Positions 10,170 through 22,169 of a stretch of 64,000 nt of DNA are shown piece by piece. A program made the translations under genes and the position numbers. How positions within the stretch are numbered: position 1 is the stretch's first letter; each line of letters begins with the position of its first letter. Under the pieces are notes generated by a model. That model did no database searches, was not told the origin of the DNA, and worked only from the letters and a program-made list of their open reading frames with translations. Source of the stretch: Falsiroseomonas algicola (GTDB taxonomy: Bacteria; Pseudomonadota; Alphaproteobacteria; Acetobacterales; Acetobacteraceae); the NCBI RefSeq assembly GCF_011040385.1, contig NZ_JAAIKB010000001.1, positions 806,001-870,000 of the forward strand, given 5' to 3'.

Positions 10170-10391
10170 GGTCTCGTCCCGGTGCGTTACGCCGCGGTCA
10201 TTAGCAATCGACGTGCCAGCAACCTTCTGGAGAAATTCTGTGCAAACGATCGCATCCACACGGTGCGATGGCCTTCTTCTTCATCGATCTGATCAATGAA
10301 TCGGCACCAGCAACCCCTGACGTTCCTTTGAGTTGAGAAAGCGTATTGAACTGCGATGTTCGGTCCGCCCCGCGGAGGATCGTCTGAAAAT

Positions 10392-12884
10392 ATGGCTACG
10401 GCTTTCGGCCGAGGCGACATCGCACCCGCGCCCCTGCGACGCCGTCAGACCCGCGTGGACCTGCTGGGCCAGGTCGCCGCAATCCTGATCCCCGCCATCC
10501 TCTTCGCGATCTCCGCCGCCCATTCCTGGCACGCGACCTGGGACGATGCGGCGAGTGACCTTCGCCGTGGCGCCCAGACCGCGAGCGAATACGTCCGCCG
10601 TATCCTCGACAGCCATGCCCTGCGGCTCGACAGGGCGAACGATCTGCTGGCCGGTCTGGATGACGACGCGATCCGTGACCAGGAAGCGCGGCTGCACGGC
10701 GCCTTCGCCCGCATCGCCGACAAGGGCCCGGCCTCCACCTACCACATCTCGATCTTCGCCTTCGACGCCTCGGGTCGTCCCCTCGTCAGTGCCAGCCTCT
10801 ATCCCGTGCCGCGCGATCTCGACCTCTCCGATCGCGAGTTCAACCAGGTGCTGCGCAATCCGGCGGAGCCGGAGCCGCATCTCAGCAGCGTGCATGTCGG
10901 CCGCATCGAACCCGATGCCTACTTCGCCTTGACGCGCCGGCGCGCGCCCTCCGGCAACCTTCCCGGCGGCACCTATGAGGGCGTGCTGAACTACTCCATC
11001 TATGTGGACGACATGGCGGAGAACCTCCGCCGCCTGGCGCTGGAGCCGACCGACATCCTGAGCCTGGTCCGGCGGGATGGCCGGGTGCTCGCGCGTTCCG
11101 TGCCGCCGCCGGGGGATCCGACGCAGTTGCGCATCTCCCGCGACGGGGATGTGCCGGCGAAGCTCGAGCGGAGCGAGGACTCCTTCCTGGCCCTGCGGGC
11201 GTCAGGCGTCGATGGCGTGCAGCGCCTCTCGGCCTGGCAGGCCGTGGCGGGGTATTCCGCCCATGTCGCCATCGCGCGCCCGCGCAGCGCCATCGTCAGC
11301 CGCTGGACGCGGAGCATCCTGCCACAGGGCCTCGCCGCCACCGGCGCGGCCGCGGCGCTGCTGGTGATCGGCGCCGCCCTCAACCGCCGCCGCCTGGCCG
11401 AGGAACGCGTCGCCGCGGGCCTCGCGGAAGCCAAGATCATCCTCGAGAAGCGGGTGGAAGAAAGGACCGCCGCGCTGGGCGAAGCCATGCAGCGGTCGGA
11501 GGATGCGGCGGCGGAGCGCGTCGCCATCCTGTCGCAGCTGGCGGAAGGCGTCGTCGTCGCGGATCGGGACGGCCGCATCGTCTTCATCAACGAAGCCGCC
11601 GCCCGCATCCATGGGACCAGCGAGCTCGGCGTCCCGCCCGAGCGCTATTCGGCCGCCTACACCCTGCTGACGGAGGATGGTCGTCCCCACCCGCCGGAAA
11701 CCCTGCCCATGTTCCGCGCCGTGCGGCATGGGGAGGTCGTGACCGATGCGCGCTGGCGCGTGCGGCGTCCGGACGGGACGGTCGTGCTTGCCGCCGGCAG
11801 CGCCCGACCCCTGCGCGACGCCGCGGGCCAGCCCAACGGCGCCGTGCTGACGCTGCGCGACGAGACGGCGCGGGACGAGGCCGAACGGGCCCTCGCCGCC
11901 AGCGAGGCCGAGTTCCGCGCCATCTTCGATACCGCCGCCGCGGGGGTGACGGAGGTGGACGTGGCCACCAACCGCTACCGCCGCGTCAACCGTCGCTTCA
12001 CCGAACTGGTCGGGCTCGACCAGGCGGAGATCATCGACCGTGGCCTCGGCCCCGATGACGTCACCCATCCCGACGACCGTGGCATCAACATCTCCCGCCT
12101 CGCCGCCTCGTCGGCGGAGGGACAGCGGGAGGGCGACAAGCGCTACCTGCGCCCCGACGGGACCGTGATCTGGGTCCGGATCAGCGCCGCCGTCGCCGCC
12201 CGGGATGCCGATGGCCAGCCGACGCGCACCGTCTCCATGGTGCAGGACATCACGGAGCGTCGCCAGGCGGAGCGCCGCCAGGCGCTGCTGGTCGCCGAGT
12301 TGAACCACCGCGTGAAGAATGTGCTGGCGACGGTGCAGGCCATCGCCAGCCAGACGCTGCGCGGCAGCCGCGGCGATCCGGCGCGCTTCGCCGAGGATTT
12401 CGCGGGCCGGTTGCGCGTGCTGGCCCATGCCCATGACCTGCTGACGGAAACCGCCTGGCATTCGGCCGATCTCGGCGCGCTGGCACGGGCGGCCCTGGCG
12501 CCCTGGATCGCCCCGGACGCGCCCGATCGGGTGGTGATGCGGGGGCTGGGGGGCGTGCGCCTCGACCCCCGCCAGGGCCAGGCCATGGTGCTGGCGCTGC
12601 ACGAACTGGCCACCAACGCGGTGAAGCATGGCGGCCTGTCCCTCCCGGGCGGCCAGGTCCGGCTGGAGGCCGCCTGGCAGGGGGAATCGCTCCGCCTCTC
12701 CTGGCGGGAATCCGGCGGCCCGCCCGTCTCCGCCCCCCCTGCCCGGCGCGGTTTCGGCACCAGGCTTCTGGAACGCGGCCTGGCCTCGGACCTCGGCGCC
12801 GACGCCACGGTGACCCTCCGCTTCGCCCCCGCCGGCGTCGAGGCCGAGATCCTGTTCAGGCCGGAGGGCGAGGCCGCGCTGTGA
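10392..12884 (+). CDS. HWE-family sensor histidine kinase with periplasmic sensor and two PAS domains
   Basis: Membrane sensor kinase of about 830 aa. It has a first helix at residues 21-44, a periplasmic sensory region of Cache/CHASE type to about 305, a second helix at 307-330, a coiled coil, PAS 1 at about 370-480, PAS 2 at about 503-622, then the kinase core. The phospho-acceptor is H639 in ELNHRVKNVLATVQAIASQT. The N-box is LHELATNAVKHG, and the WRE triplet at 771-773 is the feature that names the HWE family. The ATG at 10392 is preferred because GGAGG lies upstream, and ATG 10356 has no ribosome site. No response regulator is adjacent. Confidence 0.9.
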   Translation: MATAFGRGDIAPAPLRRRQTRVDLLGQVAAILIPAILFAISAAHSWHATWDDAASDLRRGAQTASEYVRRILDSHALRLDRANDLLAGLDDDAIRDQEARLHGAFARIADKGPASTYHISIFAFDASGRPLVSASLYPVPRDLDLSDREFNQVLRNPAEPEPHLSSVHVGRIEPDAYFALTRRRAPSGNLPGGTYEGVLNYSIYVDDMAENLRRLALEPTDILSLVRRDGRVLARSVPPPGDPTQLRISRDGDVPAKLERSEDSFLALRASGVDGVQRLSAWQAVAGYSAHVAIARPRSAIVSRWTRSILPQGLAATGAAAALLVIGAALNRRRLAEERVAAGLAEAKIILEKRVEERTAALGEAMQRSEDAAAERVAILSQLAEGVVVADRDGRIVFINEAAARIHGTSELGVPPERYSAAYTLLTEDGRPHPPETLPMFRAVRHGEVVTDARWRVRRPDGTVVLAAGSARPLRDAAGQPNGAVLTLRDETARDEAERALAASEAEFRAIFDTAAAGVTEVDVATNRYRRVNRRFTELVGLDQAEIIDRGLGPDDVTHPDDRGINISRLAASSAEGQREGDKRYLRPDGTVIWVRISAAVAARDADGQPTRTVSMVQDITERRQAERRQALLVAELNHRVKNVLATVQAIASQTLRGSRGDPARFAEDFAGRLRVLAHAHDLLTETAWHSADLGALARAALAPWIAPDAPDRVVMRGLGGVRLDPRQGQAMVLALHELATNAVKHGGLSLPGGQVRLEAAWQGESLRLSWRESGGPPVSAPPARRGFGTRLLERGLASDLGADATVTLRFAPAGVEAEILFRPEGEAAL

Positions 12885-12965
12885 AGCGCGGGGCGGCAAG
12901 GATTGGCGAAGCCCGCCCGGCAGCCTAGCCTGCGGGCCATCCTTGTCCCGAGAGGCCAGTTCCTG

Positions 12966-14348
12966 ATGACCGATGCCCCCTATGACCTCCTGCTTCGTGG
13001 CGACCTCGTGCTGTCGGACCGCGTGGTGTCGGATGGTTACGTCGGCATCCGCGCCGGGCGCATCGCCGCGATCGGCGAGGGCGAGGCGCCGCCCGCCAAG
13101 GCGGTGGCGGACCACCGCGGCAAGGTGGTGATGCCGGGCCTGGTCGATGGCCACATGCACACCTCCAGCAGCACCGGCTGGCCGGGGATCGAGGGGGCCA
13201 CCATGTCGGCCGCCGCCGGCGGCGTCACCACCGTCTGCGACATGCCCTATGATGTGCCGAACCCCGTGACCAGCGCCGCGATCTTCGCCGACAAGGTGGA
13301 GCATGTGCACCGCCTGTCGCATGTGGACATGGCGCTCTACGGCACCATCCGGAAGGATGGGGGGCTCGACGACATCGCCGCCATCGCGGAAGCCGGCGCC
13401 TCCGCCTTCAAGGTCTCCACCTACGAATACGACGCGCACCGCTTCCCGCGCATCGATCACCCGACCATGCTGGCGGCCTTCGCGGAGATGGCGAAGACCG
13501 GCCTGATGGTCGCCGTGCACAACGAGGACCAGGAACTCGTCGTCAAGCTGACGGAAGCCGCGAAGGCCGCGGGCAACACCAGCCCGATCTGGCATTGCCG
13601 CACCCGCCCGCCCCTGGCCGAGAGCATGGCGGATCTCGAGATCTTCGAGATGGCGCTGGAGACCGGCGCGCATGTCCACATCGCGCATTCCTCCATCGCG
13701 CGCGGCTTCGACCTGGCGCAGGTCTACCGGAAGATGGGCGCCAAGGCCTCCGGCGAGGCCTGCATCCAGTACCTCTGCATGACGGAGGAGGACATCGTCC
13801 GCCTGCAGGGCTTCGGCAAGTGCAACCCCCCCTTCCGCACGGCGGAGGAGGTGGAGCGCATGTGGGAATCGCTGAAGGCCGGCACCATGGCCTACATCTC
13901 GACGGACCATGCGCCCTGGCCGAAGCCCAAGAAGCAGTATACCGGCGACATCTTCGCGGTTGGCGCGGGGCTGACAGGGCTGCAGAGCTTCGCGCCGCTG
14001 ATGTACACGCTGCTGGTCGAGCGCGGCCTGCCGCCGACCGTCATGGCGCGGATGTGCAGCGAACAGCCCGCGCGCTACCACGGGCTCGATCCCGTGAAGG
14101 GCGGCATCCGCCTCGGCGCCGATGCCGATTTCTGCATCCTGGAGACCGGCGACTTCGTCTTCGACGAACGCATCATCCAGGACCGGGAGGATGCGCGCTG
14201 GTCGCCCTATCACGGCCGCCCGATGAAGGCGCGTGTCGCCAGCACGATCCTGCGTGGGCAGGAGATCTGGAACGGCACGGAGGTGAAGGCCAAGCCCGGC
14301 ACCGGCCGCTTCGTGCCCCGCCAGCACCGCCGCAGCGCGCTGGACTGA
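12966..14348 (+). CDS. Amidohydrolase, allantoinase/dihydropyrimidinase-like
   Basis: Metal-dependent cyclic amidohydrolase of 460 aa. The binuclear metal site is visible: HMH in GLVDGHMHTSSS, a lysine likely to be carboxylated in AFKVST, histidines in AVHNED and HIAHSS, and the aspartate in STDHAPW. This marks an active hydrolase of the allantoinase, hydantoinase and dihydroorotase group. The TSSSTGW loop differs from classical allantoinase, so the ring substrate is open. It lies in a region with two D-carbamoylases and a hydantoin-type racemase, which points to hydantoin or ureide breakdown. The GlcG-like gene follows after 5 bases. Confidence 0.82.
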   Translation: MTDAPYDLLLRGDLVLSDRVVSDGYVGIRAGRIAAIGEGEAPPAKAVADHRGKVVMPGLVDGHMHTSSSTGWPGIEGATMSAAAGGVTTVCDMPYDVPNPVTSAAIFADKVEHVHRLSHVDMALYGTIRKDGGLDDIAAIAEAGASAFKVSTYEYDAHRFPRIDHPTMLAAFAEMAKTGLMVAVHNEDQELVVKLTEAAKAAGNTSPIWHCRTRPPLAESMADLEIFEMALETGAHVHIAHSSIARGFDLAQVYRKMGAKASGEACIQYLCMTEEDIVRLQGFGKCNPPFRTAEEVERMWESLKAGTMAYISTDHAPWPKPKKQYTGDIFAVGAGLTGLQSFAPLMYTLLVERGLPPTVMARMCSEQPARYHGLDPVKGGIRLGADADFCILETGDFVFDERIIQDREDARWSPYHGRPMKARVASTILRGQEIWNGTEVKAKPGTGRFVPRQHRRSALD

Positions 14349-17410: not shown

Positions 17411-17707
17411 ATGGCCCCTGAACCCCGCCGCCCCCCCGGCCAGCGCTGGATCAAGCGCCCGCCGCGCCCCTCCCGCGCCGCGCCGCCAAAGCCGCAGTCT
17501 CGGGTGAAGCCGGGCCGGACGCAGTTGTTCATGGCGGTCGGCACCGGTACCGCGGCGGGCATCGTCGCCGTCATCCTCGCCCAGCTCGCCGGGGCACGCC
17601 CCGGCATCCCCGGCTTCGCCTTCGGCGCCGGCTTCTGCCTCGGCTTCATCCTGCTCTGGCGCGGCTTCGGCGGCACCACGCAGGACATCAAGGACCTCTT
17701 CCGATGA
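17411..17707 (+). CDS. Small membrane protein upstream of a D-carbamoylase
   Basis: Hypothetical protein of 98 aa. A proline- and arginine-rich N-terminus of about 38 residues is followed by two helices (LFMAVGTGTAAGIVAVILAQ, then FAFGAGFCLGFILLWRGFGG). Its stop overlaps the following D-carbamoylase start by 4 bases, so the pair are translationally coupled. Function unknown. Confidence 0.65.
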   Translation: MAPEPRRPPGQRWIKRPPRPSRAAPPKPQSRVKPGRTQLFMAVGTGTAAGIVAVILAQLAGARPGIPGFAFGAGFCLGFILLWRGFGGTTQDIKDLFR

Positions 17708-18651
17708 CCCGCAAGCTGATCATCGCCGGCGCGCAGCTCGGCCCCATCCAACGCGCCGATAGCCGCGCCGCCACCCTCGCACGCCTCATCGCGCTGCTCG
17801 AACAGGCGGCGGCGAAGGGTGCGAAGCTCGTGGTCTTCCCCGAACTCGCCTTCACCACCTTCTTCCCGCGCTGGCCGATGGAGCGCGATGCGCCGGAGCT
17901 GCTGGGCTGCTTCGAAGCCGCCATGCCGAACCCGCAGGTGCAGAAGCTGTTCGACCGCGCGCGCGACCTCGGCGTCGGCTTCTACGTGGGCTACGCCGAA
18001 CTCACGCCCGATGGACACCGCTTCAACAGCGCCATCACCGTCGGCCCCGATGGCGAGATCCTGTTCAAGTACCGCAAGATCCACCTCCCCGGCTCCGACC
18101 ACGTGAAGGAAGGCCAGAAGTACCAGCAGCTCGAGAAGATGTATTTCGAGTATGGCGACATGGGTTTCCCCGTGCAGCGGGGCCCGGAAGCCTGGGGCCG
18201 CCCCGTGCTCGGCATGCTGGTCTGCAACGACCGCCGCTGGCCGGAAGGCTGGCGCTGCCTCGGCCTGCAGGGCGTGGAGCTGGTGATGGTCGGCTACAAC
18301 TCCGCCGCCTATGACCCGAATGGCGGGGAGAGCGAGAGCGAGGAACTGCGCACCTTCCACTCCATCCTGGCCGCGCAGTCCAATGCCTATATGAACGCCA
18401 CCTGGGCCATCGCCGTCGCCAAGGCGGGCGTGGAGGATGGCGCCGGCCTGATCGGCGGGTCCGTCATCGTCGATCCCAACGGCCAGGTCGTGGCACAGGC
18501 GAAGACCAAGGACGATGAGGTGATCGTGGCGGAGGTCGATTTCGACGCCTGCCGCCAGGGCAAGGAGAAGATGTTCAACTTCGCCCAGCACCGCCGCCCG
18601 CAGCACTACCGCCGCATCGTGGACCAGGTGGGCGCGGAGGCGCCGGCCTGA
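17704..18651 (+). CDS. N-carbamoyl-D-amino acid hydrolase (D-carbamoylase), copy 1
   Basis: Nitrilase-superfamily amidase of 315 aa, close to the roughly 304 aa of characterised D-carbamoylases. The Glu-Lys-Cys triad is present: E47 in VFPELAF, the lysine in KYRKIHLPG near residue 125, and C174 in VCNDRRWPEGW. The CNDRRWPE motif is typical of D-carbamoylases rather than of nitrilases. The enzyme hydrolyses N-carbamoyl-D-amino acids to D-amino acids, CO2 and ammonia. A second copy lies at 20380, on the far side of the photoreceptor operon. Confidence 0.88.
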   Translation: MTRKLIIAGAQLGPIQRADSRAATLARLIALLEQAAAKGAKLVVFPELAFTTFFPRWPMERDAPELLGCFEAAMPNPQVQKLFDRARDLGVGFYVGYAELTPDGHRFNSAITVGPDGEILFKYRKIHLPGSDHVKEGQKYQQLEKMYFEYGDMGFPVQRGPEAWGRPVLGMLVCNDRRWPEGWRCLGLQGVELVMVGYNSAAYDPNGGESESEELRTFHSILAAQSNAYMNATWAIAVAKAGVEDGAGLIGGSVIVDPNGQVVAQAKTKDDEVIVAEVDFDACRQGKEKMFNFAQHRRPQHYRRIVDQVGAEAPA

Positions 18652-18679
18652 TCCACGCCCGTGATGAATTCGCGGCAAG

Positions 18680-18713
18680 GAAGACAGGGCGCGGTCGATG
18701 ACCGCCCGTCTTC
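18680..18713 (+). terminator. Strong hairpin between D-carbamoylase and photoactive yellow protein gene
   Basis: Stem with arms GAAGAC/GTCTTC, GGG/CCC and CGGTC/GACCG, with small bulges on the left arm and a GAT loop. It lies 28 bases after the D-carbamoylase stop and 82 bases before pyp. It may end the upstream transcript or be part of the pyp leader. There is no clean T-run. Confidence 0.45.
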
Positions 18714-18795
18714 AACCCTTCCTTAGCCGCCGTCTCCTAGCCTGCGTCGGCCCGTCGATGGATGGCGGGCCCAGCCTCGACAAGGGAACGCAGCG

Positions 18796-19185
18796 GTGGA
18801 CGGCAGCCTCGACCTCATGAGCTTCGCCAAGGGCGATATCGACAACGTCCTGTCGGGGATGTCGTCCAACGACATCGACCGCCTGGCCTTCGGCGCGATC
18901 GAGCTCGACCGCACCGGCAAGGTGCTTCGCTACAACTCCGCGGAGGGCAAGATCACCGGCCGCGACCCGAAGGCGGTGATCGGCAAGAACTTCTTCACCG
19001 AGGTCGCGCCCTGCACCAACCGCCCGGCCTTCCGTGGCGAGTTCGACAAGGGCGTCGCCGCCGGCAGCATGAACACGATGTTCTCCTACACCTTCGACTA
19101 CCAGATGAAGCCGACGCAGGTGAAGGTGCACATGAAGAAGGCCATCGCGTCCGACACCTACTGGGTTTTCGTGAAGCGCCTGTGA
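18796..19185 (+). CDS. pyp: Photoactive yellow protein (PYP)
   Basis: Blue-light photoreceptor of 129 aa, a PAS-fold protein that binds p-coumaric acid as a thioester. All key residues of Halorhodospira PYP are present with a constant offset of four: Y46 and E50 (hydrogen bonds to the chromophore phenolate), T54, R56 and P72, with C73 as the attachment cysteine in [28 protein letters not shown] and [17 protein letters not shown] are near-identical to the reference family. The start is GTG 18796 with AAGGGA upstream, and the later ATG 18817 would cut the N-terminal cap. The next gene is a p-coumarate:CoA ligase overlapping by 4 bases, which supports a working chromophore pathway. Confidence 0.95.
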
Positions 19186-20336
19186 GCGTCACGGCCTGGT
19201 GGCAGGCGGAGGAGGCGCGCGCGCGCTTCCTCGCGGACCTGATCGCCGCGGAGGTCGCGCGGCTGCGCCCGGGCGAGCCTGCGGCGGCGCCGCTCGACAT
19301 GCTCGACTCGATTGAGCTTCTCTCGGTCGCCGCCGCCGTGTCCGAAGCACTCCACCTGCATGAAAGCGGGATCGAGGATCTGCTCCTCGCCCATCGCCGC
19401 ATCGAGGATTGGCGCGCCATCGCGCGCGAGGCTCTCACCCGCTTCGATGCCGCGATCACCTTCCGCACCTCCGGCAGCACCGGGGAGCCGAAGCCCTGCA
19501 CCCATGCACTGGCGCGGCTGGAGGCGGAGGCGGCGGGCCACGCTGGGCTGATCGGCCCTCGGCAGCGTGTGCTGTCCGCCGTGCCGTCGCATCACATCTA
19601 CGGCTTCCTGTTCACGCAACTGCTGCCGCGGCATCTCGGCGGCCTGCCCGTGCTGGATTTGCGTGGCACCTCGCCCGCCGGCGTCGCCGCCAAGCTGCAG
19701 CCGGGCGACCTCCTCATCGGCCATCCCGCCTGGTGGGGCGCCGTGGCACGCTTCGCCCCCGGCGCCCTGCCGCCGGACATCATCGGCGTCACCTCCACCG
19801 CCCCCTGCCCGCCCGCCACCGCGATGGCACTGCGGGATCGCGGCCTGGCGCGGCTGGTGCAGGTCTACGGCTCGTCGGAGACCGCCGGCATCGGCTGGCG
19901 CGACACGCCGGACGGCCCCTTCACCCTGCTGCCTAGCTGGACGCGCGACGGCGAGGCCATCGCCGCGCCCGACCACCTCACCTTCCTGCCCTGCGGCCGC
20001 CGCTTCACCATCGGGGGCAGGGCGGATGGCGCCGTGCAGGTGGCGGGCCACAACGTCTTCCCCGCGCGCATCCGCGCGGCCCTCGAAGCCCATCCCGCCG
20101 TCGCGGCCGCTTCCGTCCGGCTGATGCGGCCCGAGGAAGGGGATCGCCTCAAGGCCTTCATCGTCCCCCGCGACCCAGCCTCCGATCTTGCTGTTCTGCG
20201 CGGAACACTCGCGGCCTGGGCGGAAGCGACCCTGGCGCCGCCCGAACGCCCCCGCGCCTGGCGCTTCGGGGCCGGGCTGCCGGAGGGCGCCATGGGCAAG
20301 GCGGCCGACTGGTCCTGCCTCGCGGAAGCGGGCTGA
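19182..20336 (+). CDS. p-Coumarate:CoA ligase of the PYP system (adenylate-forming enzyme)
   Basis: AMP-forming acyl-CoA synthetase of 384 aa, shorter than ordinary 4-coumarate ligases of over 500. [12 protein letters not shown] is the P-loop (A3), [14 protein letters not shown] is A5, [16 protein letters not shown] is the hinge region, and the late lysine in GAMGK is the adenylation lysine. Short ligases of this kind sit beside pyp genes and make the p-coumaroyl-CoA used to load the cysteine. The start GTG 19182 overlaps the pyp stop (GTGA), so translation is coupled. A tyrosine ammonia-lyase gene, the usual source of p-coumarate, is not in the window. Confidence 0.88.
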
Positions 20337-20379
20337 CCGCATACTTCCGCGTGCCGCCCGCGCGCGGTAAGCATCGCGC

Positions 20380-21348
20380 ATGACCTTCCGTCGCCTCACC
20401 GTCGCCGCCGCCCAGATGGGCCCCCTCCAGAAGGCCGAGGGCCGCGACGTCGCCGTCGCCCGCATGATCGCCCTGATGGAAAAGGCCGCGCGGCGCGGCG
20501 CGGAGGTCGTGGTCTATCCCGAACTCGCGCTGACGACGTTCTTCCCGCGCTGGCATCACGAGAATCTGGCCGACGCCGATCACTGGTACGAACACGCGCT
20601 GCCGTCCAACGAGACCGCGCCGCTTTTCGATGCCGCCCGCCGCCTGAACATCGGCTTCCACCTCGGCTACGCGGAGAAGACGCCGGATGGCCGCCGCTTC
20701 AACACCGCGGTCTATGTCCATCCCAACGGCCAGGTCGTCCTGAAGTACCGCAAGGTGCACCTGCCCGGCCACGCGGAATACGATCCCGTCCGCAAGGTCC
20801 AGCACCTGGAGAAGCGCTATTTCGAGCCGGGCGACCTCGGCTTCCCCGTGGTCCGGGCGCCGATCGGCGCGGCGGGCCCCGTCAATATCGGCATGATGAT
20901 CTGCAACGACCGCCGCTGGCCGGAAAGCTGGCGCGTGCTGGGCCTGCAGCAGGTCGAACTCGTCATGCTCGGCTACAACACGCCCAGCCTGAACATGGAG
21001 AACCGGGGGTTCGAGGCGCATCACCTCCGCGTCGCCCATAGCCACCTGTCGATCCAGGCCGGCTGCTACCAGAATGCCTGCTTCGGCGTCGGCGTCGCCA
21101 AGGCGGGGACGGAGGACGGGCACGAACTCTTCGGCCATTCCATCATCGTGAACCCGCAGGGCGAGATCATGGCCCAGGCGACCTCCTGGGATGACGAGGT
21201 GATCGTCGCGGAATGCGATCTCGGCATGTGCGAGCTTGGCCGGAACACCATCTTCAACTTCGCCCGCCACCGCCGGCCGGAACACTACACCCGCATCACC
21301 GCCCAGACGGGCAGCGAGGCCCCGCCGGCCTGGACGCCGACGGTCTAG
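20380..21348 (+). CDS. N-carbamoyl-D-amino acid hydrolase (D-carbamoylase), copy 2
   Basis: A 322-aa paralog of the enzyme at 17704. The triad is retained: glutamate in VYPELAL, lysine in KYRKVHLPG and cysteine in ICNDRRWPESW. The middle region (IQAGCYQNACFGVGVAKAG) differs from copy 1, which suggests a different side-chain preference. It starts 43 bases after the p-coumarate:CoA ligase and may be co-transcribed with pyp. In other bacteria, close relatives act with hydantoinases. Confidence 0.87.
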   Translation: MTFRRLTVAAAQMGPLQKAEGRDVAVARMIALMEKAARRGAEVVVYPELALTTFFPRWHHENLADADHWYEHALPSNETAPLFDAARRLNIGFHLGYAEKTPDGRRFNTAVYVHPNGQVVLKYRKVHLPGHAEYDPVRKVQHLEKRYFEPGDLGFPVVRAPIGAAGPVNIGMMICNDRRWPESWRVLGLQQVELVMLGYNTPSLNMENRGFEAHHLRVAHSHLSIQAGCYQNACFGVGVAKAGTEDGHELFGHSIIVNPQGEIMAQATSWDDEVIVAECDLGMCELGRNTIFNFARHRRPEHYTRITAQTGSEAPPAWTPTV

Positions 21349-21410
21349 GCGGCCCCCCGGGCCCCGCGCTAAACCCCTGCCTGCACGCGCTCCACAGCGA
21401 AGGCTTCCGC

Positions 21411-22169
21411 ATGACCGACCCTTCCGCCTACCCCGTCCTCTTCCGCGTCACCGCGGCGACCGAGCTGCGCGCGGGCCCCGGCGCGGACCAGAAGGCGGTG
21501 CGCGCGCTGCCGGCCGACCAGATCGTGGTGATGGTGGCGGAGGCCGCGGATGGCTGGATCCAGGTGGAGGCGCCCGGCGGCCAGCAGGGCTTCGCCCCCG
21601 CCGGCCTGCTCCGCCGCCAGGTCGCCGGCGCCAAGTCGCCGACCCATGTGACGGAAACCTTCCCCTGGCGGAACGTGGATCGCGTGAACCGCGACCCGAA
21701 GATGCTGCACACCGCCTTCCGGGACCGCGCGCTGCGCGTCGTCGCCCGCCTGAACGCGGAAGGCATCCCCTTCGGCATCTATGAGGGCATGCGCGGCCCC
21801 TGGCGGCAGAACCACCTCTACGCCTCCGGCCGCAGCCGGTCCGGCCGCATGCTGACGCCGGTGCAGGCCTGGAACAGCCTGCACCAGTTCGGCCTGGCGG
21901 CCGACTTCGTGCTGGCCCTCGAAGGCCGCTGGTCCTGGGACGCGGATGAGGGCCAGTCCTTCATGTGGGACCGCCTGGAAGCCGTCGGCCGCGACGAGGG
22001 CCTGGTCTCCAAGCCCGGGGAGCGTCCGCACCTCCAGCTCGATGGCATCACGGTGGAGGATCTCAAGGCCGGCAAGCTGCCGCCCGGTGCCGACCCCACC
22101 TGGATGACCGCCTTCACCTGGATCACCGACAGCTGGGACGGCAAGCCGGCCGGCCCCAAGCTGAAGTAA
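21411..22169 (+). CDS. SH3b domain plus M15-type peptidoglycan peptidase
   Basis: Protein of 252 aa. Residues 10-68 form a bacterial SH3 domain (TELRAGPGADQKAVRALP, then DGWIQVEAPGGQQGFAPAGL). Residues from about 90 to 225 resemble M15 D,D- or L,D-peptidases of the VanY/CwlK/endolysin type, with zinc ligands in SLHQFGLAADF (His and Asp) and in ERPHLQL. No signal peptide is visible, which is odd for a wall enzyme and recalls phage endolysins, but no other phage genes are nearby. Confidence 0.78.
   Translation: MTDPSAYPVLFRVTAATELRAGPGADQKAVRALPADQIVVMVAEAADGWIQVEAPGGQQGFAPAGLLRRQVAGAKSPTHVTETFPWRNVDRVNRDPKMLHTAFRDRALRVVARLNAEGIPFGIYEGMRGPWRQNHLYASGRSRSGRMLTPVQAWNSLHQFGLAADFVLALEGRWSWDADEGQSFMWDRLEAVGRDEGLVSKPGERPHLQLDGITVEDLKAGKLPPGADPTWMTAFTWITDSWDGKPAGPKLK

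Follow-up and report, generated by a model that had tools for sequence, protein, structure and literature searches.

A photoactive yellow protein gene and an adjoining ligase gene, probably gained together recently, in a phototrophic bacterium of the Acetobacteraceae

Among the systems closest to the locus described here is the pyp-pCL-TAL operon of Halorhodospira halophila (PMC12826048, section 8), with genes for photoactive yellow protein (PYP), p-coumarate:CoA ligase (pCL) and tyrosine ammonia-lyase (TAL). Our locus resembles it in encoding a single-domain PYP (125-129 aa) with the same pocket residues and in having pCL directly downstream. It differs in having no TAL-type gene beside pyp (none was detected elsewhere in the genome either), in its other neighbours, and in a PYP that is 62% identical (78 of 125 residues). 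The nearest named PYPs (66-72% identity) belong to Azospirillaceae pairs (Skermanella stibiiresistens, Arenibaculum, Niveispirillum, Azospirillum), in which pCL also lies just downstream of pyp; these pairs differ in host and insertion site, and no amidohydrolase neighbours were seen. Within the host family, genome G298 has the closest PYP (74%) and the closest pCL (57%) that were found, in the same order but with different neighbours. Other PYPs of the family (G356, G121, G216 and others) mostly have pCL nearby and mostly come from reaction-centre genomes; unlike ours, they form a separate branch, are 40-50% identical to our PYP, and have pCL placed divergently in eight of the nine cases where it is near pyp. 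Section 4 of PMC12826048 counts 984 PYP homologs over many phyla, so the statement of an earlier sequence-only reading of this DNA that PYPs are mostly known from purple bacteria is outdated. A search of open-licence full text (supplements excluded) found no article linking PYP with Acetobacteraceae or Roseomonas; given that scope, published homolog lists may already contain the sequences reported here.

The window (the whole stretch of 64,000 nucleotides that was analysed) contains the following features around pyp:

10356-12884, PAS-kinase upstream of pyp, 74% in G397 and G398
17704-18651, plus strand, carbon-nitrogen hydrolase 1, left flank of the block (PF00795, 151 bits)
18652-20378, plus strand, block of 1.73 kb, probably inserted (spacer, pyp, pcl); right edge placed to within about 20-30 bases
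18776-18789, plus strand, 14-base leader before pyp, identical to the hydrolase 2 leader in relatives (one mismatch in G398)
18796-19185, plus strand, pyp, predicted PYP of 129 aa, GTG start, chromophore cysteine Cys73
19182-20336, plus strand, pcl, predicted short pCL of 384 aa, GTG start, four-base overlap with the pyp stop
20380-21348, plus strand, carbon-nitrogen hydrolase 2, right flank of the block (PF00795, 185 bits)

Translation of 18796-19185 on the plus strand gave an open frame of 129 aa. Its GTG start is backed by a related locus (L089) that reads ATG-Asp-Gly-Ser in the same register, a gene for which the simple gene caller picked a longer start. A search against PYP families, which the sequence-only reading had proposed as a check, gave 187.4 bits for the NCBIfam equivalog TIGR02373 (photo_yellow; cut-off 143.05), with residues 8-129 covering positions 3-124 of the 124 in the model. 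All 33 distinct PDB sequences matched at E ≤ 0.01 were PYP, engineered FAST derivatives or the Ppr PYP domain (best match, E = 1.5e-53), and the family match is far above chance. Alignment with H. halophila PYP showed that the pocket residues listed by the earlier reading had been correctly assigned, at a constant offset of four: Y42 corresponds to Y46, E46 to E50, T50 to T54, R52 to R56, P68 to P72, and C69 to C73. Further H. halophila residues that are kept include I31, F62, V66, A67, F96, Y94, D97, Y98, M100, and W119. The conserved pocket list given in section 5 of PMC12826048, which includes Cys69, Tyr42, and Glu46, is present in full (C73, Y46, E50, I35, F66, V70, A71, P72, and F100). 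The chromophore cysteine is invariant across an alignment of 19 PYP sequences. An AlphaFold2 model based on a 19-sequence alignment reached a mean pLDDT of 81.8 (residues 1-8 below 50), and the top 41 PDB rows of a Foldseek search with this model were PYP or PYP-derived (TM up to 0.92, query). The predicted fold is that of a PYP-type PAS domain. Judged by its sequence, the gene encodes a canonical, full-length PYP with a complete chromophore pocket, as the earlier reading had claimed. What PYPs are known to be from published work is unchanged by this protein alone.

That a ligase gene follows pyp was likewise borne out. The best family of the product of the overlapping short frame was TIGR02372 (4-coumarate--CoA ligase) with 294 bits, below the curated cut-off of 334.7, and the second-best family reached 61.8 bits; a match to Pfam AMP-binding was also found. 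The TIGR02372 match covers positions 48-385 of the 386 in the model. The protein carries SGSTG, YGSSE, and a C-terminal GK, which we take to be adenylation/ligase motifs (including the lysine); the C-terminal Gly-Lys (K373) is invariant in an alignment of seven sequences. Around eight residues near residue 42, present in four of six aligned relatives, are missing. The gene next to pyp thus encodes a short ligase that spans most of TIGR02372 and has the presumed adenylation motifs. A pCL match was located near pyp in 35 of the 53 loci of the genome-contig collection (with a partial match at L031) and in 12 of the 15 PYP carriers of the host family, the exceptions being G006, G209 (on a 4.6-kb contig), and G044. 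Because of the TIGR02372 match, the kept motifs, and the presence of pCL near most pyp loci, the two genes look like the usual chromophore-loading unit, even though pCL formally falls below the curated cut-off.

Comparison with near relatives revealed the site without the two genes. In G397, G398, and G393 (hydrolase 1 identity to that of the window 98, 97, and 95%), only 44, 44, and 67 bp, respectively, separate the two hydrolase genes, and all three genomes lack a PYP over the cut-off, as do 13 of the 15 genomes of the genus in total. In the window, spacers of 144 bp (hydrolase 1 to pyp) and 43 bp (pcl to hydrolase 2) separate the four genes, all on the same strand. DNA similarity to G397 ends at 18651, the stop of hydrolase 1, and resumes at 20379; for G398 it ends at 18651 and resumes at 20389, and for G393 it ends at 18655 and resumes at 20358. 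Each of the three empty sites lies inside a long syntenic stretch, with contamination in the genome table at 7 and 6% for two of these three genomes. Used as a DNA query against the 15 genus genomes, the block had, outside itself, only short matches of up to about 110 bases, plus the genes of G356 (pyp 72%, pcl 67%), which are located elsewhere. Because similarity breaks at the stop of one gene and resumes at about the start of the next, the sequence comparison suggests that pyp-pcl is probably a recent gain of two genes in 1.7 kb. An older copy lost in G397, G398, and G393 is a less simple explanation.

In most of the genus, the two hydrolase genes are near neighbours. Among the 14 other genomes, the gap between them was below 100 bp in five and 848 to 3823 bp in eight, the long gaps containing other open frames, several with coding-like composition; G262 had no second hydrolase gene in the stretch compared. 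As a separate observation (18651-20380 of the window and loci L151-L164), the site between the hydrolases is variable in the genus, its open frames changing from species to species.

The 14-base leader of pyp (CTCGACAAGGGAAC) is also the leader of hydrolase 2 in G397 and, with a single exchange (sixth base T instead of C), in G398. Upstream of other called genes of the window, the best match to this leader was 10 of 14, and mononucleotide shuffling of the 144-bp spacer gave no match of 13 or more of 14 in 4000 trials. We read this as a probable insertion just behind the ribosome-site leader of hydrolase 2, which pyp would then have used, although the remainder of the spacer shows no match. A mobile element as the carrier was considered and set aside: no genes besides pyp and pcl were found in the block, and a repeat search found no repeats at its ends. 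A tblastn search located PYP relatives in 13 of 72,556 plasmid records (best identity 69%) and in none of 50,697 phage records. In three of the plasmid matches (H5, H8, and H9), PYP-like proteins are annotated as 'phosphonate transporter', probably a naming error.

Gene trees point to a wider group as the likely source of the pair. The PYP tree had 92 rows, 36 of them from the host family (the G209 gene was entered twice), leaving out matches that spanned fewer than about 90 query residues and host-family matches without a retrieved stretch. In this tree, the window PYP groups with G298, G132, and G006 as well as Azospirillaceae and Sphaerotilaceae rows (93/81, under the star threshold), and G356, of the same genus as the window, falls in a separate host-family branch of 14 rows (99/92; one gene twice). 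Given the starred branches, the family label must have changed at least four times. For the pCL tree (46 rows), 12 named loci were dropped, mostly shorter copies of stretches present in longer form, and the pCL of L094 (G275), split in two pieces, was removed by the length filter. The window pCL appears there in the same company as its PYP, including Azospirillaceae-type pairs (a set of 15 rows, SH-aLRT 95). Since both trees place the pair in the same wider group, pyp-pcl was likely acquired by horizontal transfer from this group, which includes the Azospirillaceae and Sphaerotilaceae rows. Wide horizontal transfer of PYP has already been inferred in a passage of PMC9664959.

The genome bearing the window (6.56 Mb, 99.3% complete) has pufL, pufM, bchX, bchY, and bchC on one contig, each over its cut-off. 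The host carries photosynthesis genes and is not plainly heterotrophic; the earlier description of the region as heterotroph-like is not supported. A 24-kb query from the window matched 66 plasmid records (42 from Sinorhizobium and 12 from Roseomonas), a weak indication that fits the plausible Acetobacteraceae label. The same genome has a second PYP-like gene on another contig (G000:C3:32445-32759; L105 9986-10465, minus strand), scoring 75 bits, below the cut-off; its product retains the Tyr, Glu, and Cys, but positions 50 and 52 are occupied by Ser and Leu, and the Trp at 119 is missing. Downstream of it lies a gene for a 354-aa protein with PAS matches, an order also found in G398. Low-scoring PYP matches were seen in G397 and G369.

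Across 397 host-family genomes, drawn evenly from a larger group, 41 had some PYP match and 15 were over the cut-off, a tally that includes G044 (one internal TAA in the match) and G326 (69% complete). A reaction-centre gene was over its cut-off in 124 of the 397, namely in 12 of the 15 PYP carriers versus 112 of the 382 other genomes (Fisher p = 1e-4). When counted by genus, with descent corrected at this level only, at least one sampled genome had a reaction centre in 8 of 9 carrier genera versus 35 of 93 others (p = 0.004). Thus, PYP in the host family goes with reaction-centre genes; the carriers without one are G326 (69% complete), G348, and G207.

Several arrangements in the family deserve mention in their own right. 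In genome G006 (L091, L092, and L093), four PYPs exceed the cut-off, and two of these are encoded by adjacent, divergently oriented genes; the one that was read closely has Phe at position 42, and the three stretches have no pCL match. In G207 (L102 4729-5786), two tandem PYP genes lie near one pCL, and the genome has no aromatic-lyase match. In six host-family genomes (L074-L079), PYP matches lie inside open frames 381 to 1089 aa long and are probably fused to other sensor domains.

Concerning chromophore supply, the genome of the window has a single match to the aromatic-lyase family (PF00221). This lyase has a Ser-His pair, which we take to indicate the histidine type (histidine ammonia-lyase), and its neighbours are presumably hutU and hutI; at the corresponding place, several of the lyases adjacent to other pyp genes carry His-Leu. 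No TAL was found beside pyp or elsewhere in the 99.3% complete genome, so the locus does not match the complete pyp operon with TAL. Because the sole aromatic amino-acid lyase found looks like histidine ammonia-lyase, p-coumarate is probably scavenged from outside. Alternatively, it could be made by a broad-range lyase or through a gene that the incomplete assembly lacks. According to section 8 of PMC12826048, most pyp operons lack TAL, and uptake has been suggested.

Among the 15 host-family carriers, 11 have the Ser-His lyase alone (including G326, 69% complete), G356 has Ser-His and an odd lyase, G132 has His-Leu beside pyp, and G213 and G207 have none. With histidine-type lyases only in 11 of 15 and no lyase in 2 of 15, the whole lineage may run PYP on a borrowed chromophore. 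Nineteen further PYP genomes comprised (i) seven with a His-Leu lyase (G402 and G412 also with Ser-His, G407 also with an unread one); (ii) three with Tyr-His or Phe-His; (iii) six with Ser-His only; (iv) one with Ser-His and an odd lyase; (v) one with Ser-His and an unread fragment; and (vi) one without lyase.

Taken together, we favour, with a probability of roughly 85%, the reading that the window encodes a canonical receptor for blue light together with the enzyme that loads its chromophore, recently gained as a two-gene block by a phototrophic bacterium. As known for the family, pCL would convert p-coumarate to its CoA thioester, and Cys73 of PYP would take up the activated p-coumarate. 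Blue light near 445 nm would then isomerise the chromophore, Glu50 would give up its proton, and PYP would partly unfold into the signalling state. Sections 3 and 8 of PMC12826048 describe p-coumarate activation by the ligase, binding by the cysteine, a photocycle driven by blue light, and glutamate as the proton donor; section 5 gives 445 nm as the mean maximum of Thr50 PYPs, and a maximum near this value is suggested for our protein because it has Thr at position 50 (H. halophila numbering). Judging from the absence of a TAL-type gene, p-coumarate would come from plant or algal matter, not from tyrosine. By analogy, the likeliest outputs would be light avoidance or the tuning of pigment and biofilm programmes. 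Given a pCL but no tyrosine lyase, PYP could also act as a coincidence detector, lit only if blue light coincides with a supply of p-coumarate from plant or algal matter outside the cell; in our estimate this is unlikely.

A search of 17600-21500 yielded no promoter-like site. Two terminator-like sites were detected, both on the minus strand (1.6 expected), and the 144-bp spacer folded little better than its shuffles (z = −1.0). No output gene was seen adjoining pyp-pcl, and when the genes called up to 4.5 kb from each of 12 related pyp loci were compared by eye, no neighbour besides pCL recurred, a weak test since the gene caller misses genes, including the pCL of the window itself. As no output gene was seen beside the pair, the PYP signal is probably handed on to a partner located elsewhere in the cell.

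The strongest rival, which we nevertheless hold to be quite improbable, is that pyp-pcl is a fresh passenger whose PYP folds but is not usefully lit or expressed, with p-coumarate or an output partner missing. Such a state would suit the patchy, apparently recent gain, the lack of any tyrosine-lyase-type gene found in the genome, the lack of a recurring neighbour at the related loci, and the pCL score below the TIGR02372 cut-off. Against it, both frames are open, the pocket and ligase motif residues are intact, and the leader in front of pyp serves another gene in relatives; moreover, pyp and pcl have a third-position G+C of 0.96 and 0.89, close to the 0.88-0.93 of six other genes in the window.

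Far less probable is that PYP controls the surrounding hydantoin/amide genes by light and is co-transcribed with them. The sequence-only reading had placed pyp in a region of amide and hydantoin catabolism, and pyp shares the strand of both flanking amidohydrolase genes, with short spacers on both sides of the pair. The cluster, however, exists in relatives without pyp, and hydrolase homologs occurred at none of the 53 genome-contig and 17 host-family pyp loci (with flanks of at most 10 kb, frequently shorter). The upstream PAS-kinase, a candidate partner gained together with pyp, was rejected in that role, as G397 and G398 have the PAS-kinase and lack a pyp of the window type, so that it did not arrive with pyp. 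Because the flanking genes are neighbours without pyp-pcl in near relatives, and because the flanking hydrolases were beside no other pyp locus examined, the catabolic surroundings are probably accidental and without functional link. The cluster itself looks like a hydantoin-type one around 12963-14348, where an amidohydrolase is nearest to ErtD, the hydantoin-5-propionate amidohydrolase of ergothioneine use (489.5 bits, cut-off 600). Finally, that the protein is an ordinary PAS domain merely resembling PYP can be dismissed almost entirely: Pfam labels it as PAS and nothing more specific, but it passes the equivalog cut-off, has the cysteine and the full pocket, and finds its best PDB matches among PYPs by sequence and by fold, with other PAS domains trailing far behind (the nearest non-PYP one in Foldseek only at E = 8.7e-07).

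For the favoured reading of a recently gained receptor and loading enzyme, the value of this PYP lies in the empty-site comparison and in the missing tyrosine lyase. The whole-genome lyase counts extend a point that is open in the literature, the origin of the chromophore when TAL is absent. What the locus offers is an apparently recent and precisely bounded gain of a light receptor, and near relatives with the empty site provide a natural before-and-after comparison for a bare pyp-pcl pair in a phototroph.
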